47,146 nt of DNA from assembly GCA_028290905.1 (NCBI GenBank), contig JAQGIW010000099.1, positions 1 to 47,146 on the forward strand, given 5' to 3'. Under the pieces are notes generated by a model. The model had not been told where the DNA came from, did no database searches, and saw nothing but the letters and a program-made list of their open reading frames with translations. Position numbers and translations under genes: made by a program. The DNA is from Caulobacteraceae bacterium. GTDB taxonomy: Bacteria > Pseudomonadota > Alphaproteobacteria > Caulobacterales > Caulobacteraceae. Each line of letters begins with the position of its first letter. Position 1 is the stretch's first letter. This document shows positions 7,180 to 20,900 of the stretch, in pieces.

Positions 7180-9753
7180 ATGGTCCGATACAATCCCAAG
7201 GCGGTGGAGCCGAAGTGGCGGGCGGCCTGGGACGAGGCCGACGCCTTTCGTGCTGAAACCGGCTCGTCGAGGCCGAAATACTATGTGCTGGAGATGTTTC
7301 CCTATCCCTCCGGCCAGCTGCACGTGGGTCACGCCCGCAACTACGCCATGGGCGACGTGGTCGCCCGCTTCAAGCGCGCCCGCGGGTTCAACGTCCTCCA
7401 CCCCATGGGATGGGACGCCTTCGGCCTGCCGGCGGAAAACGCCGCCGCCGAGCGGGGTATCGATCCCGCCGCATGGACGGGCGAGAACATCGTCCGCATG
7501 CGCGACGAGCTGAAGCGCCTGGGACTGTCCCTCGACTGGTCCCGGGAACTGGCGACCTGCGATCCGGAATACTATGGCCGCCAGCAGAACTGGTTTCTGA
7601 GGCTGCTCGAGCGTGGCCTCGTGTACCGCAAGGAAGGCCTGGTGAACTGGGACCCGGTCGACATGACCGTCCTGGCCAACGAGCAGGTCGTCGACGGGCG
7701 CGGGTGGCGGTCGGGCGCGGTGGTCGAGCGCCGCAAGCTCAACCAATGGTTCCTGCGCATCACCGACTATGCCGAGGAACTGCTTCAGGGGCTGGAGACC
7801 CTGGACCGGTGGCCCGAGAAGGTGCGGCTGATGCAGGAGAACTGGATCGGCAAGTCGCGCGGTCTGCGCCTGACGTTCCGCTTTGCCGGCCCCCTGCCGC
7901 TCCATCACGCCTCGGACGGCGTCACGGTCTACACCACCCGGCCGGACACCCTTTATGGCGCGAGCTTCATCGCCGTCTCTCCCGACCATCCCCTGGCGAC
8001 CGAGCTGGCCGCCCGCGATCCTGAGGTCGCCGGCTTCATCGCCAGGGCGCGGCAGGGGGGCACCTCCGAGGCCGAGATCGAGGCGGCCGAGAAGCTGGGC
8101 TGGGATACCGGCTTGCGCGTTGAACATCCCTTTGATTCAAAACGGGAATTGCCCGTCTGGATCGCCAACTTCGTGCTCATGGACTACGGGACCGGCGCGA
8201 TCTTCGGCTGTCCCGCCCACGATCAACGCGACCTGGACTTCGCCCGCAAGTACGGCCTGCCGGTCATCCCCGTCGTCCTGCCGCCCGCGGAAGATGCCGC
8301 CTCGTTTCACGTGAAACAGGAAGCTTATGTCGGTCCGGGCCGAATCTACAATTCCGATTTCCTCGACGGCCTGGACATCGAATCCGCGAAGGCGGCGGCC
8401 ATCGCCCGCGCCGAGGCCGAGGGGATCGGCGAGGGCGCCACGGTCTTCCGCCTGCGCGACTGGGGCGTGGCGCGCCAGAGGGGCTGGGGCTGCCCGGTCC
8501 CGGTGATCCACTGCGCCAACTGCGGCGTCGTCCCCGTTCCCGTCGGCCAGCTGCCGGTCCGGCTGCCTGAGGGCCTGGATTTCAGCCAGCCGGGTAACGC
8601 CCTGGCCCGACATCCCACCTGGAAGCACGCCACCTGTCCCCGGTGCCAGGGGCCCGCCGAGCGGGAAACCGACACCCTGGACACCTTCGTCGACTCCTCC
8701 TGGTACTTCGCCCGCTTCCCCGATCCGCACGCGGAGCCCCCCATCGACAAGGCCGCGGCCGACTACTGGCTGCCGGTGGATCAGTATATCGGCGGCGTCG
8801 AACACGCCGTGCTCCACCTGCTATATTCGCGGTTCGTCACCCGCGCCCTGGCCGATGAGGGCCTGCTGTCGGTCCGCGAGCCGTTCGCCGGCCTCTTCAC
8901 CCAGGGCATGGTCACCCACGAGACCTATCGCCGCCAGTCCGGGGAATGGCTGGAACCGGGGGAGGTGGAGATTCGCAACGAAGGCGCCACCCGCCGCGCC
9001 TACGACATCGCCACCGGCGAACCTGTCGTGATCGGCGAGGCGGAGAAGATGTCCAAGTCCAAGCGCAACGTCGTCGCGCCGGCCGACATTGCCGACACCT
9101 ATGGCGTCGATGCCGCCCGCATCTTCGTGCTGTCCGATTCCCCGCCCGAGCGCGACGTGCAATGGACCAGCGCCGGCGTCGAAGGCGCGTGGCGCCTGAT
9201 CAACCGCATCTGGGCCGAGTTCGAAGAAGGCCTGGACCATGCCGAGGGCGCCGGCGATGCGGCGGCCGGCCTCGAGCTGCGCCACTCCACTCACAAGGCG
9301 ATCAAGGCGGTCACCGAGGCCATCGAGGGCTTCCGGTTCAACAGCGCCATCGCCCGCCTCTATGAGTTCGTCGCCGCGGTGCGTGAGGCGCGCCTCGCCC
9401 GGGCCTCGGGCGACGCCCGGCGTGAGGCTCTCAGCACACTCGCCCGGCTGGTGGCGCCCTTCGCCCCTCATCTTGCGGAAGAGGTCTGGCAAACGATCGG
9501 TGAGTCTGGTCTCCTGGCTCTCGCTCCGTGGCCCGTGTGGGATCCCGGCCTCGCCGACGACGACGAGCGCATCCTGCCGGTCCAGATCAACGGCAAGCGG
9601 CGCGGCGAGGTGCGCGCGCCGGCCGGCGCGTCGGCGGGGGAGGTGGAGAAGCTGGTGTTCGAGAACGAGGAGATCGCCAGGCGCCTCGAGGGCGTCACCG
9701 TCCGCAAGGTGATCGTGGTGCCCGACCGCATCGTCAATCTGGTGGTGGCCTAG
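7180..9753 (+). CDS. leuS: Leucine-tRNA ligase
   Basis: Class I aminoacyl-tRNA synthetase that charges tRNA-Leu. The 857-residue length is normal for a bacterial LeuRS. Seen: the HIGH motif as LHVGHARN near residue 47, the CP1 editing domain with [14 protein letters not shown] and [13 protein letters not shown], a zinc-type CxxC pair (CANCGVVP and CPRCQG), the class I KMSKS motif as EKMSKSKRN, then the anticodon-binding helical domain and C-terminal domain. A TGAGGAG ribosome-binding site precedes the ATG. A parS site lies within codons 375-380. lptE follows after 3 bases and holA after that, an arrangement common in alphaproteobacteria. Confidence 0.98.
8303..8318. promoter_or_regulatory. 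parS: parS centromere site inside leuS
   Basis: CGTTTCACGTGAAACA matches the 16-base bacterial parS consensus TGTTTCACGTGAAACA at 15 of 16 positions, with a perfect 14-base palindrome at 8304-8317. It is read as S-F-H-V-K-Q at LeuRS residues 375-380. ParB from the nearby parAB genes should bind here, load CTP and spread. It lies about 3 kb from parB and about 12 kb left of the presumed origin. Confidence 0.9.
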
Positions 9754-10272: not shown

Positions 10273-11325
10273 GTGATCGTCCAGCGGCGTCCGGACATCG
10301 ACCGCTTCCTGGCCGGCCCCGGACCTCAGATCCGGGCCGCGGTGCTGCATGGCCGGGATCAGGGCGTCGTCCGCGAACGCGCCCAGACCCTCGCCGCCGC
10401 CGTCACCGAGCGGCCCGACGACCCGTTCAACGTCGCCATCCTTTCCGAGGCCGATCTCGCCGCCGATGAGGGAAAGCTCGACGGTGAGCTGATGGCCCTC
10501 TCCATGCTGGGCGGCCGGCGGCTGGTCCGTCTTCGGATCGCCGGCGACAAGCCCGCCGTCGACCGCCTCGTCGCCGGGGCCCTCGCGAATCACCTCAAGG
10601 ACCGCTTCAATCCCGAGGCCTTCTTCCTGGTGGAGGCAGGCTCCCTTGGACGCGATTCGGCCCTGCGCAAGGCGGGGGAAGCGGCGCCCGGGTGCGGCGT
10701 GATCCCCTGCTACGAGGACGAGCCGGCCGACCTCGCCAGATTGGCCCGCGAAGCCCTGGCCGCCGACAAGCTCGCCCTCAGCGCCGAGGCCCTCGACACC
10801 TTCATCGCGCGCCTGCCGCACGAACGCGGCGTGGCGCGACGGGAGATCGAACGGCTGATCCTGTTCCTCGGCCCCGGACGCAACGCCACGGCCGGGCTTG
10901 CCGATCTGGAAGGCTTCTTCGGCGTCGAGCCCGAGGCCTCACTGAGCGAGGCGGCCTTCGACGCCTTTGGCGGGCGCCCGGCGGCGGCCCACGCGGGACT
11001 CCGGCGGGCCGGACAGGAAGGCGAGAGTGGCGTGGGCGCCGTGCGGGCGATGGGGATGCATCTGGCCCGGCTGCGGCGGGTTGCTGTCCTGCACCGGGCC
11101 GGCGAGGCCCTGCAGACCGCCGCCAAAGCTTCGGGGGTGTTCTGGAAGCAGGAGCGCGAATTCCTCCGCCAGGTGCAGGCCTGGAGCCTGGCCGAACTCG
11201 ACGGCGCCCAGGACGACATCCTCGCCGCCGATCGGGCCTGCAAGCGGGCCGGATCGCCCGACGCCCTCCTCGCCGAACGCCTCGCCCTCTCCATAGCCGG
11301 CCGCGCCCGCCGGCTGGGGCTCTAA
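10273..11325 (+). CDS. holA: DNA polymerase III subunit delta
   Basis: Delta subunit of the clamp loader, which opens the beta sliding clamp and loads it on DNA. The 350-residue product has family features: FLAGPGPQIRAAVLHGRDQGVVRERAQTL (in motifs PQIRAAVLHGRD and VVRERAQTL), LSMLGGRRLVRLR, FFLVEAGSL, ALAADKLALSAEAL and RREIERLILFLG. There is no Walker A, as expected for delta. The GTG start at 10273 lies 3 bases after lptE. The 3' end overlaps parB by 4 bases in convergent orientation, so no separate terminator fits between them. Confidence 0.93.
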   Translation: MIVQRRPDIDRFLAGPGPQIRAAVLHGRDQGVVRERAQTLAAAVTERPDDPFNVAILSEADLAADEGKLDGELMALSMLGGRRLVRLRIAGDKPAVDRLVAGALANHLKDRFNPEAFFLVEAGSLGRDSALRKAGEAAPGCGVIPCYEDEPADLARLAREALAADKLALSAEALDTFIARLPHERGVARREIERLILFLGPGRNATAGLADLEGFFGVEPEASLSEAAFDAFGGRPAAAHAGLRRAGQEGESGVGAVRAMGMHLARLRRVAVLHRAGEALQTAAKASGVFWKQEREFLRQVQAWSLAELDGAQDDILAADRACKRAGSPDALLAERLALSIAGRARRLGL

Positions 11326-12212
11326 TCCGACGACGCGCCGCGCGACAGCCGGCGGCACAGGTCGTCGAGCTGTTCGAGGGTGCCATAGGCGATGCGCACC
11401 TCGCCGGGGCCGCCGCGGTGACGGATCTCCACCGCGAGGCCCAGGACCTCCTCCAGATCCGCTTCCAGGGAACGCGTGTCGGTGTCTTTCGCCGCGGCTC
11501 CCTTCGCCCTCCTCGAGGCGACGCTCCCCTCCCGCTTCGCCGTCCGGGCCAGGGCCTCCGTCTGGCGCACGCTGAGTCCCAGCCTGACCACACGCTCGGC
11601 CAGGGCGACGGCGTCGCCCACCTCGAGCAGGGCCCGGGCGTGGCCCGCCGTCAGCCGCCCCTGCTCCACGTGCTCCTGGACGACGGCGGGCAGGCGCATC
11701 AGGCGCAGGGTGTTGGCCACATGGCTGCGGCTCTTGCCGACCACCTTGGCGATGGCGTCAGGGCTGCGCTTGAACCGCTGCGCCATGGCGTCATAGCCGC
11801 GCGCCTCCTCGAGGGCGTTGAGATCGGCGCGCTGGATGTTCTCGATCAGCGCCACCTCCATCACCTCCTGGTCGGCCAGGTCCCTGACCAGCGCGGGAAT
11901 GGCCCGCAGGCCGGCCTGTTGAGCCGCCCGCCAGCGTCGCTCGCCGGCGATGATCTGATAGGCTTTCTCCTGGCCGGGCATCGGCCGCACGAGAATGGGC
12001 TGCAGCACGCCCCGCTGCCTGATCGAGGCGGCCAGCTCGGCCAGCTCCTCCGGCCCGAACGCCTTGCGGGGCTGGCCCGGGTTCGGCCGGATCAGCTCGA
12101 TCGCCACGTCGAGCACCCCGGCCGCGCGCCGGCCTTCCGGGGTCGAGGCGCCCTCGACCTCGTCCAGCAGCGCGGACAAGCCGCGACCCAGGCCCCGTCG
12201 ACCTTCCGCCAT
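11322..12212 (-). CDS. parB: Chromosome-partitioning protein ParB
   Basis: parS-binding CTP clamp that nucleates the origin segregation complex. The product has 296 residues from the ATG at 12212, which is preceded by GAGGAG; a longer in-frame start at 12257 lies inside parA and lacks family similarity. Order of parts: an N-terminal ParA-contact peptide (RRGLGRGLSALL), the CTP-binding N domain with PNPGQPRKAF, QPILVRP and GERRWRAAQ, the LIENIQRADLNALEEA segment, a helix-turn-helix region (SPDAIAKVVGKSRSHVAN), and a C-terminal dimerisation domain. parA lies just upstream and overlaps none of this start; parS sites lie on both sides. Confidence 0.96.
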   Translation of the reverse strand: MAEGRRGLGRGLSALLDEVEGASTPEGRRAAGVLDVAIELIRPNPGQPRKAFGPEELAELAASIRQRGVLQPILVRPMPGQEKAYQIIAGERRWRAAQQAGLRAIPALVRDLADQEVMEVALIENIQRADLNALEEARGYDAMAQRFKRSPDAIAKVVGKSRSHVANTLRLMRLPAVVQEHVEQGRLTAGHARALLEVGDAVALAERVVRLGLSVRQTEALARTAKREGSVASRRAKGAAAKDTDTRSLEADLEEVLGLAVEIRHRGGPGEVRIAYGTLEQLDDLCRRLSRGASSD

Positions 12213-12237
12213 CACGCAAACTCCTCGGTATGCGGGG

Positions 12238-13041
12238 TCACGCCGGCGCCGCCCCACGCTCGCGCGTCATGACCTCCCGCGCCAGCTTCAGATAGGCCTG
12301 GCTGCCGGCGCAGTGGAGGTCGTAGATGATTGCCGGCTTGCCGAACGACGGCGCCTCCGAGAGGCGGACGTTGCGCGGAATCATGGTGTCGTAGACCCGG
12401 TCGCCCAGGTGGTCGCGCACGTCCTTGGCCACCTGCCCGGACAGGGTGTTGCGTCGGTCGTACATGGTCAGGACCACGCCCTGGATCTCCAGGCCCGGGT
12501 TGAGCGAGGTGCGGACCTGCTCGACGGTGCGCAGCAGCTGGGTCAGGCCCTCCAGGGCGAAGAACTCGCACTGCAGCGGCACCAGGACTGCGTCGGCGGC
12601 CGTCATGGCGTTGACGGTCAGCAGGTTCAGCGACGGCGGGCAGTCGATGAGAACATGGCTGTAGGTCCTGGCCGCGCGGAGGCCGGCGAGGGCGTCGCGC
12701 AGCCTGAACGCGCGCCTCGCCGTCTGCCCCAGCTCCAGCTCCACGCCGGAGAGATCGGCCTCGGCCGGCACGAGATGAAGACCCGGGATGCCCGTCTCGA
12801 TGATCGCCTCACTGATCGGCAGCTCGTCCATCATCACATCGTAGAGGGTCTTGGCCCGCCCGTGGGGCGGCACGCCAAGTCCCGTGGAGGCGTTTCCCTG
12901 GGGATCGCTGTCGATCAGCAGCACCGACTCGCCTACGGCCGAGAGCGCGGCGCCGAGATTGATCGCGGTCGTGGTCTTTCCCACGCCGCCCTTCTGGTTG
13001 GCGATGGTCAGAACGCGCGGGGGTCTATGGCTTGGCGACAC
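12238..13041 (-). CDS. parA: Chromosome-partitioning ATPase ParA
   Basis: Deviant Walker-type ATPase that forms the gradient along which ParB-parS complexes are pulled to the new pole. The GTG at 13041 gives 267 residues and is preceded by GAGGAG; upstream in-frame starts fall in the rsmG coding end and add unrelated sequence. Seen: deviant Walker A ANQKGGVGKTTTA near the N-terminus, DSDPQGNASTGLG, Walker B-like VLIDCPPSLNLLT, and IPRNVRLSEAPSFGKP. It overlaps rsmG by 17 bases and is followed by parB, the usual mnmG-rsmG-parA-parB order. Confidence 0.97.
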   Translation of the reverse strand: MSPSHRPPRVLTIANQKGGVGKTTTAINLGAALSAVGESVLLIDSDPQGNASTGLGVPPHGRAKTLYDVMMDELPISEAIIETGIPGLHLVPAEADLSGVELELGQTARRAFRLRDALAGLRAARTYSHVLIDCPPSLNLLTVNAMTAADAVLVPLQCEFFALEGLTQLLRTVEQVRTSLNPGLEIQGVVLTMYDRRNTLSGQVAKDVRDHLGDRVYDTMIPRNVRLSEAPSFGKPAIIYDLHCAGSQAYLKLAREVMTRERGAAPA

Positions 13042-13756
13042 GGACGAGCTCCTCGATCGACAGCAACCGCCCCCGCGGATCACTCAGGCTCGGCGTCGTG
13101 CGGGCCTTGAATCGCCAGCTCCGCCGCGCCTCGGCGATCTCCGCCTCCACCTCGGCCCCCTTGAGGAACAACCCCCGGGCGCCCCGCGCCAGATAGGGCC
13201 GGGCGTAGGTCAGGAGCCGGTCCAGAGGAGCGCAGGCGCGGGCCGTGACCATCTCGACATTCAGCTCCAGGGACTCGGCGCGCGCATGATGGACCACGGC
13301 CGGCAGTTCCAGCGCTTCGACCACCTCCGCGAGGAACCGGCAGCGCTTGGCCATGCTCTCTATCAGGTGAACCCGCGCGCCGGGACGGTCCTTGAGCAGA
13401 ATCGCCAGCACCACCCCCGGCAACCCGGCCCCGCTGCCGAGATCCGCCCAGACCAGGGCCGGTGGCTCGGCCCATAGCAGTTGGGCGCTGTCGACGAAAT
13501 GCCGCCGCCAGAAATCCGCCAGCGTCGACTCACCCACCAGGTTGGCGACGCGGTTAGCCTCCGTCAGGCGCGCGCGGAAGCGCTCGACGGACTCCAGGCG
13601 CGCGGGCGTGGCGCCCACCGCGTCGAGGAACCCTGGCGGGAGGTCCGCCAGTTCAGGGAGAATATCGGCGCGGGATGATTTCCTCTGGAAATCAGAATCA
13701 GGCGCCGCACTCGAAATCCTAGAGCACGATTCAGCCACGAGGCCGTTCCATCTCAT
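13025..13756 (-). CDS. rsmG: 16S rRNA (guanine527-N7)-methyltransferase RsmG
   Basis: SAM-dependent methyltransferase that modifies G527 of 16S rRNA. Recognised by the SAM-binding WADLGSGAGLPGVVLA, the ESMAKRCRFL stretch after strand 2, and TARACAPLDRLL. The family homology begins around DAVGATPARLESVERF. The first ~15 residues from the ATG at 13756 (MRWNGLVAESCSR) are coded by a dispersed palindrome, so the true start is uncertain; GTG at 13738 also lies in the repeat, and no well-spaced ribosome-binding site is evident. The 3' end overlaps parA by 17 bases. Confidence 0.93.
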   Translation of the reverse strand: MRWNGLVAESCSRISSAAPDSDFQRKSSRADILPELADLPPGFLDAVGATPARLESVERFRARLTEANRVANLVGESTLADFWRRHFVDSAQLLWAEPPALVWADLGSGAGLPGVVLAILLKDRPGARVHLIESMAKRCRFLAEVVEALELPAVVHHARAESLELNVEMVTARACAPLDRLLTYARPYLARGARGLFLKGAEVEAEIAEARRSWRFKARTTPSLSDPRGRLLSIEELVRVAKP

Positions 13757-15639: not shown

Positions 15640-15655
15640 TGTTTCACGTGAAACA
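15640..15655. promoter_or_regulatory. parS: parS centromere site between mnmE and mnmG
   Basis: TGTTTCACGTGAAACA is a perfect match to the parS consensus, and the palindrome extends one base on each side (15639-15656). It lies directly after the mnmE stop codon (15657-15659) and before the mnmG start (15621), about 2.6 kb from parA and 5 kb from the presumed origin. It should be a primary ParB loading site. Confidence 0.95.
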
Positions 15656-20404: not shown

Positions 20405-20471
20405 CGGCGTCTTAGACAGCGTCGCAAGCCAGCTCTCAAGACCTCCCGGGAACCAACCGATCTCTTTCTCA

Positions 20472-20496
20472 TTAAGAAAGAATCAAGGGGTTTTAA
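20472..20496. promoter_or_regulatory. Candidate CtrA/IHF/CcrM overlap site in origin
   Basis: TTAA-N7-TCAA (20472-20486) differs by one base from the CtrA site TTAA-N7-TTAA, and another TTAA follows at 20493. The same bases carry AATCAAGGGGTTT (20481-20493), a 12 of 13 match to the IHF consensus WATCAANNNNTTR, and a CcrM site GAATC (20480-20484). CtrA and IHF sites are known to overlap in the Caulobacter origin, which supports the reading. Confidence 0.5.
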
Positions 20497-20568
20497 GGTA
20501 GTACCGATAGAAGGCCCGATAACGGGCATGAAACCCGACGGGGCCGACGGTCCCCGTCCCGATCAAAA

Positions 20569-20577
20569 CGATCCACC
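20569..20577 (+). promoter_or_regulatory. DnaA-box-like nonamer
   Basis: CGATCCACC differs by two bases from the Caulobacter G-box TGATCCACA and by one from the CGATCCACA boxes seen elsewhere in this origin. It lies 38 bases left of the AT-rich core. Confidence 0.4.
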
Positions 20578-20597
20578 GGGTTGAGATCGCGGCGAAT

Positions 20598-20606
20598 ATA
20601 TCCACC
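20598..20606 (+). promoter_or_regulatory. DnaA-box-like nonamer
   Basis: ATATCCACC keeps the TATCCAC heart of the consensus TTATCCACA (7 of 9). It lies 8 bases before the AT-rich core, where boxes usually guide unwinding. Confidence 0.4.
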
Positions 20607-20614
20607 AGCTCGCC

Positions 20615-20654
20615 AATCTAGTCTTAACATATTGTTTTTATTGAGAATATAAAC
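20615..20654. other. AT-rich segment, candidate DNA-unwinding element
   Basis: Forty bases with only eight G or C, in a chromosome of very high G+C, within the presumed origin. It includes TTAACATATTGTTTTTA (a TTAA-N7-TTTT arrangement at 20624-20638 that may also be a weak CtrA site). Such segments open first when DnaA acts. No coding frame crosses it. Confidence 0.6.
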
Positions 20655-20674
20655 ACGCCAGCAGTGTATGCCGC

Positions 20675-20683
20675 TGTGGATCG
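20675..20683 (-). promoter_or_regulatory. DnaA box
   Basis: Read on the minus strand it is CGATCCACA, one base from the Caulobacter G-box TGATCCACA. It lies about 20 bases right of the AT-rich core. Confidence 0.6.
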
Positions 20684-20753
20684 ACCTGGCGGGCCGCGCC
20701 TGTGGGAAAGGCCCGGAGGCTGTCTCCCGCGCGGTTCCAAGGGGCCGGAAAGC

Positions 20754-20762
20754 TGGGGATCG
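20754..20762 (-). promoter_or_regulatory. Weak DnaA box / W-box
   Basis: On the minus strand it is CGATCCCCA, one base from the CGATCCACA box, and it contains TCCCCA, the Caulobacter W-box hexamer. Confidence 0.4.
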
Positions 20763-20845
20763 AACGGACTCTTGTCCCCCGTGTCGGCTCGCCCGTCAAA
20801 AGACGGCGGGATCGTCAACGCCACTTCCACCGTGAAGGGGGATTG

Positions 20846-20874
20846 GTTAAGCAAACGCTAACCGCCGATCCACA
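20846..20874 (+). promoter_or_regulatory. CtrA-like site followed by DnaA box, before ppsR
   Basis: TTAA-N7-CTAA (20847-20861), one base from the CtrA consensus, lies within the near-palindrome GGTTAAGC-AAAC-GCTAACC. Five bases later comes CGATCCACA (20866-20874), one base from the Caulobacter G-box. Closeness of the two suggests competition between CtrA and DnaA at this edge of the origin. This is inferred from known Caulobacter biology. Confidence 0.5.
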
Positions 20875-20900
20875 GGACGTTTGACCCCAGGCCGTACCGC

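Follow-up and report, generated by a model that had tools for sequence, protein, structure and literature searches.

In Caulobacter crescentus, the chromosomal origin (Cori) was placed experimentally between hemE and the COG1806/DUF299 gene (PMC1914354). The locus described here raises the question of whether an intergenic gap that has the second of these genes on one side and hemH on the other is still the origin of its chromosome and, if so, what became of hemE. The window (the whole stretch of 47,146 nucleotides that was analyzed) is contig C203 of a 317-contig draft genome of 5.23 Mb; among relatives of its ppsR, the nearest named loci are those of uncultured Caulobacteraceae. An initial annotation had proposed that the 496-bp gap at positions 20405 to 20900 is the oriC of a Caulobacter relative, noting that the C. 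crescentus origin adjoins the DUF299/ppsR gene. Gene order, position-matched elements, a unique CtrA/G-box element, and the adjacency of the genome's only parS sites uphold the proposal, and we consider it highly probable that the whole intergenic gap is the chromosomal oriC and is homologous to Cori. For a case argued from sequence, this assignment of a predicted Cori-type origin on the basis of gene order, boxes, and the composite element is firm.

Gene order around the hemH-ppsR gap

The gap is bounded on the left by hemH (ferrochelatase; PF00762; 19358 to 20404, minus strand), which stands in the place of hemE, and on the right by ppsR (DUF299/COG1806; PF03618; 20901 to 21749, plus strand), the usual right neighbor of Cori. 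Reading away from the gap, the left side carries hemH, hemJ, rho, mnmE, mnmG, gidB, parA, and parB, all on the minus strand; the hemJ gene was identified as a Pfam UPF0093 match, which we take to be hemJ. The right side begins with ppsR, maf, aroE, coaE, and dnaQ, followed by secB on the opposite strand, and Tim44, mltA, smr, an M81 gene, and an SDR gene also lie on the plus strand. Among the genes identified within about 11.3 to 31.3 kb of the window, secB was the sole exception to the initial observation that most genes point away from the gap on both sides.

Of the two genes that flank Cori, ppsR is present and hemE is absent, an absence that the initial annotation had not remarked on. Since rho, hemJ, hemH, and a left promoter-like element are in place (the rho-hemJ-hemH order being that of Caulobacter sp. 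locus L043), the position of the gap is still homologous, and with hemE missing from its left side, the gap is classed as a variant of Cori rather than as a plain member. Unlike the C. crescentus origin, the window has hemH directly abutting the gap, as do seven other gaps. In locus L017 of genome G011 (900 to 2285), a hemJ-like open reading frame abuts the origin gap, and neither a hemH nor a hemE match was found between rho and ppsR. Flanking genes have also changed in some lineages among the Rickettsia and Wolbachia origins that were predicted from Cori; Wolbachia, Ehrlichia, and Anaplasma have kept hemE but have COG1806 displaced (PMC1914354), whereas the window has kept ppsR and lost hemE. 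A plasmid origin was also considered and was rejected when no similar DNA was found in plasmid records at an E value of 1e-5.

Sequence elements of the gap and of related origins

For comparison, the best 80 of 118 ppsR relatives, the loci for the best 30 ppsR matches, and the window were combined into 111 records; ppsR was found in 98 of 99 genomes. After four loci with neither hemE nor hemH as a neighbor (L017, L047, L098, and L104) were dropped and duplicates of the same gap were collapsed, the set comprised 92 distinct gaps, of which 84 have hemE on the flank and 8 have hemH, L090 (the window's own copy) being one of the 8; it leans to near relatives, and its members are not independent. 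A model-free k-mer search of these gaps had TTAAC-type words and words with TCCACAG or TCCCCA among its top scorers. Compared to shuffled sequences, TCCACA was enriched 9-fold (119 versus 13.4), TCCCCA 6-fold (244 versus 38.2), and TTAA-N7-TTAA 326-fold (228 versus 0.7, with palindromes counted on both strands); TCCGCA (24 versus 27.4) and TCCTCA (20 versus 18.8) showed no enrichment in the 92 gaps, and the Escherichia coli box TTATCCACA occurred in none of them. The W-box of C. crescentus has the published consensus TCCCCA (PMC4285127), and such boxes are enriched in related origins as well, partly at recurrent distances. Position-matched elements and the enrichment of boxes and CtrA sites in the homologous gaps count in favor of the initial proposal.

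The gap contains an A+T-rich element of about 40 bp at 20614 to 20655, which is the likely unwinding element. Three overlapping 40-mers starting at 20614 to 20616 contain 32 A or T residues each, compared to at most 26 in any 40-mer of the window outside the gap, and the approximately 80% A+T core that had been seen initially is the only one of its kind in the window. Folding of the region from 20585 to 20700 was unremarkable (z = -0.53). No exact match to the IHF consensus was found in the gap, and there were two matches with one mismatch against 0.31 expected. The C. crescentus origin is described as containing an RNA, CcnA (PMC8959179); between 18600 and 22400 of the window, no RNA family was matched at the gathering score.

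Both of the nonamers CGATCCACA reported initially are exact at their places. One of these G-box-like DnaA boxes (20675 to 20683, minus strand) lies beside the A+T core, and the other (20866 to 20874, plus strand) lies at the place of TGATCCACA in Caulobacter locus L043; unlike the G-box of C. crescentus Cori, the window's nonamer starts with C and not T, the first base being the one that differs from TGATCCACA. A W-box (TCCCCA, within CGATCCCCA; 20754 to 20762, minus strand), placed by box spacing among anchored loci, is faced by a weak W-box-like sequence, TTGTCCCCC (20772 to 20780, plus strand), placed by alignment. Boxes of both the G-box and W-box types are therefore present, namely, two CGATCCACA, one TCCCCA, and further weak ones. 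The gap contains two sites for NGATCCACA, compared to 0.012 expected from shuffles. The octamer GATCCACA has 195 sites in the 5.23-Mb genome, so pairs within 500 bp arise elsewhere and the number of boxes by itself is not decisive. When the window was divided into 933 tiles of 500 bp that were scored for boxes together with CtrA-like sites, all 13 tiles with scores of at least 3 overlapped the gap. The right-hand pattern could anchor only 20 of the 92 gaps. Relative to the right box, a minus-strand box stands at -132 or -133 in 9 of these 20 (3 of the 9 being near-alike Caulobacter loci) and at -121 in the window.

The initial annotation had taken CGATCCACA to be a box sequence of this genome's own. 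We rejected this reading because the same nonamer is present in 4 of the 91 other origin gaps (L013, L032, L041, and L112) and because positions 1 to 3 of the boxes vary widely across origin gaps, where TCC[A/C]CA is kept and is mostly followed by G. The binding domain of DnaA in this genome has GGRDHTTV, presumably the usual signature of that domain. The dnaA gene lies on a contig other than that of the gap, and the 600 bp preceding its earliest possible start contained no NNNTCCMCA box.

The right G-box belongs to a composite element (20846 to 20875, plus strand) in which it follows a CtrA-like site, TTAAGCAAACGCTAA, at 20847 to 20861. The pattern GTTAANNNNNNGYTAACNNNNNNTCCACAG was searched with at most one mismatch in 60 genomes, with the reversed pattern as a control. 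Since the pattern was drawn from an alignment holding several of the matched loci, the test speaks for uniqueness and not for discovery: 12 of the 60 genomes had the element, once each, and in all 12 the ppsR match followed 23 to 165 bp downstream, whereas the reversed control gave no match in the 60 genomes. Eight matches were in the window's genus and four were in other genera of the family. The remaining 48 genomes, including all 24 of other families, gave no match, and so the exact composite element is not universal; TCCCCA forms occupy its place in Phenylobacterium loci L022, L056, and L079.

The left CtrA-like site, TTAAGAAAGAATCAA, is at 20472 to 20486. A site with seven to eight matches at -520 to -400 of ppsR was present in 6 of the 8 hemH-flanked gaps versus 15 of the 84 hemE-flanked gaps, against 1.3% by chance. 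Unlike C. crescentus Cori, for which five CtrA sites are described, the window's gap has no perfect TTAA-N7-TTAA and two imperfect sites, each matching at 7 of 8 positions. A loss of CtrA sites along with hemE was considered and was not retained: the eight hemH-flanked gaps have zero or one perfect site (three have none) and the 84 hemE-flanked gaps have a mean of 1.3 (12 have none), numbers too few to separate the two groups. The gap nevertheless resembles Cori in having ppsR on its right, an A+T-rich core, and parS nearby (PMC4468827, PMC4285127, and PMC1914354, for the features described there), as well as G-box-type DnaA nonamers, TCCCCA W-boxes, and a CtrA-type site next to the right G-box.

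Partition sites, GC skew, and the origin assignment

With up to two mismatches allowed, the genome contains no more than two parS sites, and both are in the window, 5 and 12 kb from the gap: a perfect site at 15640 to 15655 and a site with one mismatch at 8303 to 8318. Nearby are parB (11322 to 12257, minus strand; PF02195 and PF17762) and parA (12238 to 13083, minus strand; PF13614). According to a survey quoted in PMC4468827, the origin-proximal 15% of the chromosome holds 92% of parS sites. By homology with Cori, DnaA would bind the two CGATCCACA boxes and then the weak TCCCCA-type boxes and would open the A+T core. CtrA, bound next to the right DnaA box (at 20847 to 20861) and to the left CtrA-like site, would exclude DnaA until removed, and ParAB acting on the parS sites would then carry the origins apart.

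Within the window, the GC skew did not change sign at the gap and was mostly negative on both sides. In a complete relative (G034; 40 stretches), the skew split at the homologous ppsR site was 0.0193, with P = 0.0066 by a permutation that ignores the likeness of neighboring stretches; the best split (P = 0.042 for the best split anywhere) was at 3.35 Mb, 0.3 Mb from ppsR, and 13% of the tested positions beat ppsR. In a second relative (G026; 20 stretches), the split at ppsR had the wrong sign (-0.0057) and the best split, 0.0057, was elsewhere. Of the two sampled relatives, then, G034 weakly supports an origin at ppsR and G026 does not. For several alphaproteobacteria, skew has been noted not to suffice for locating the origin (PMC1914354).

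We also considered whether the gap might do no more than drive divergent transcription of hemH and ppsR, under the control of CtrA and DnaA as transcription factors, while replication starts at some other locus. Both proteins do regulate promoters (PMC4468827), the right element is within 23 to 165 bp upstream of ppsR, and the left element is directly upstream of hemH or hemE. A promoter, however, can do without W-box clusters that recur at set distances and without an 80% A+T core that is unique in the window. Moreover, the C. crescentus origin has been mapped to the homologous gap (PMC1914354), and it is next to the gap that the genome has its only parS sites. A gap that serves solely as a promoter region is thus very improbable, and assignment as oriC is preferred.

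Loss of hemE and the outward promoter-like element

Among 16 genomes of the window's genus, 7 lacked hemE at the origin and carried it elsewhere (G002, G009, G011, G012, G013, G014, and G015), 5 had a single hemE at the origin (G003, G005, G007, G008, and G010), and 4 were left unclassed (G000, G001, G004, and G006). In G000, hemE (uroporphyrinogen decarboxylase) was not found by either family or protein searches, and hemH and hemJ were present; an assembly gap is most likely. G001 has a divergent hemE and apparently no origin contig. A loss of ppsR from G001 is not believed; the rho search was also empty and the only Maf match was 40% identical, so that the origin contig is probably absent from the assembly. 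The hemE of G004, close to a contig end, is origin-like; G006 has a third hemE type, and its ppsR is close to a contig end. The hemE of the window's own genome may likewise be missing from the assembly. A small ppsR tree, some nodes of which were weakly supported, grouped most of the genus members that are hemE-less but placed L100 and L119 apart from them, which makes more than one loss of hemE likely.

A divergent hemE elsewhere was present in all eight typed genomes without an origin hemE and in none of the five with one. G041, of another genus, combines a hemH-flanked origin with a divergent hemE. The divergent hemE loci away from the origin are L177 to L180, L183, L185, L207, L208, and L211 (genomes G001, G002, G009, G011 to G015, and G041). 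It might be supposed that hemE was not replaced but merely moved within the chromosome, and relatives do carry hemE elsewhere. However, the copies found elsewhere are 75 to 88% identical to the G012 copy (75% for G001) and only 46 to 50% identical to the Caulobacter origin copy, compared to 60 to 68% for the origin-borne copies of the same genus (L015, L016, L018, L019, and L032), and a simple move is therefore unlikely.

At the left edge of the gap, a promoter-like element, CTTGAG-N18-TCTAA (20412 to 20440, minus strand), reads outward into hemH and is position matched to an element before hemE in relatives. Its general form, CTTGAG-N18-TYTAA, appears to resemble a housekeeping promoter. When 650 bp upstream of ppsR was taken and the range from -640 to -400 was searched with at most one mismatch, this form was found in 85 of the 92 origins (78 of 84 flanked by hemE and 7 of 8 flanked by hemH, L014 being the exception) and in 0 of 460 shuffles. 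The 78 hemE-flanked loci ruled out an element restricted to hemE-less origins. The copy at 20412 to 20440 is the only exact one in this genome. Across 60 genomes, there were 19 exact matches in 17 genomes, versus 17 matches for the reversed pattern; 9 of the 19, all in the window's genus, were at the left origin edge or directly above hemE, and the other 10 were elsewhere. Since the element is about as frequent genome-wide as its reversed control, its weight derives from position. It was not found in the 400 bp above the nine divergent hemE copies or in the L017 gap.

The element is present in front of hemE and of hemH alike, and hemE thus seems to have been deleted from the stretch that separated the element from hemH; the left flank would have lost hemE and the element would have stayed, now facing hemH. 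This retention may reflect a need of the origin for outward transcription, or only a need of hemH for a promoter. According to the first possibility, in the window's lineage and in the other genus (G041), a divergent hemE elsewhere would have freed the origin hemE for deletion, and the outward promoter would have remained at the origin and passed to hemH, the origin needing outgoing transcription and not hemE itself. We propose this tentatively, at somewhat less than even odds. The chances are about equal for and against the element having been kept only for hemH transcription, in which case it would tell nothing about replication: any gene deprived of the operon partner ahead of it would require a promoter, and the element lies on the outermost border of the origin, where hemE or hemH starts, yet its distance from ppsR is similar in 85 of the 92 origins and hemE transcription is described, in a figure legend, as important for C. 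crescentus replication (PMC8959179).

It is this description that makes the locus useful, since here hemE is gone and the promoter-like element and the origin boxes are left. An origin that has exchanged this gene but kept the element before it offers a natural test of the requirements for its function, and a comparison of hemE- and hemH-flanked origins could separate the contributions of the gene, the transcript, and the binding sites. No paper on Caulobacteraceae origins without hemE was found among the open-access papers searched, judged by titles and the beginnings of abstracts. The origin is of a known kind and its location is as expected for the family; the gene swap behind the retained element is apparently new. 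Only 7 bp separates the promoter-like element from the start codon of hemH, a spacing at which the hemH message may be nearly leaderless.
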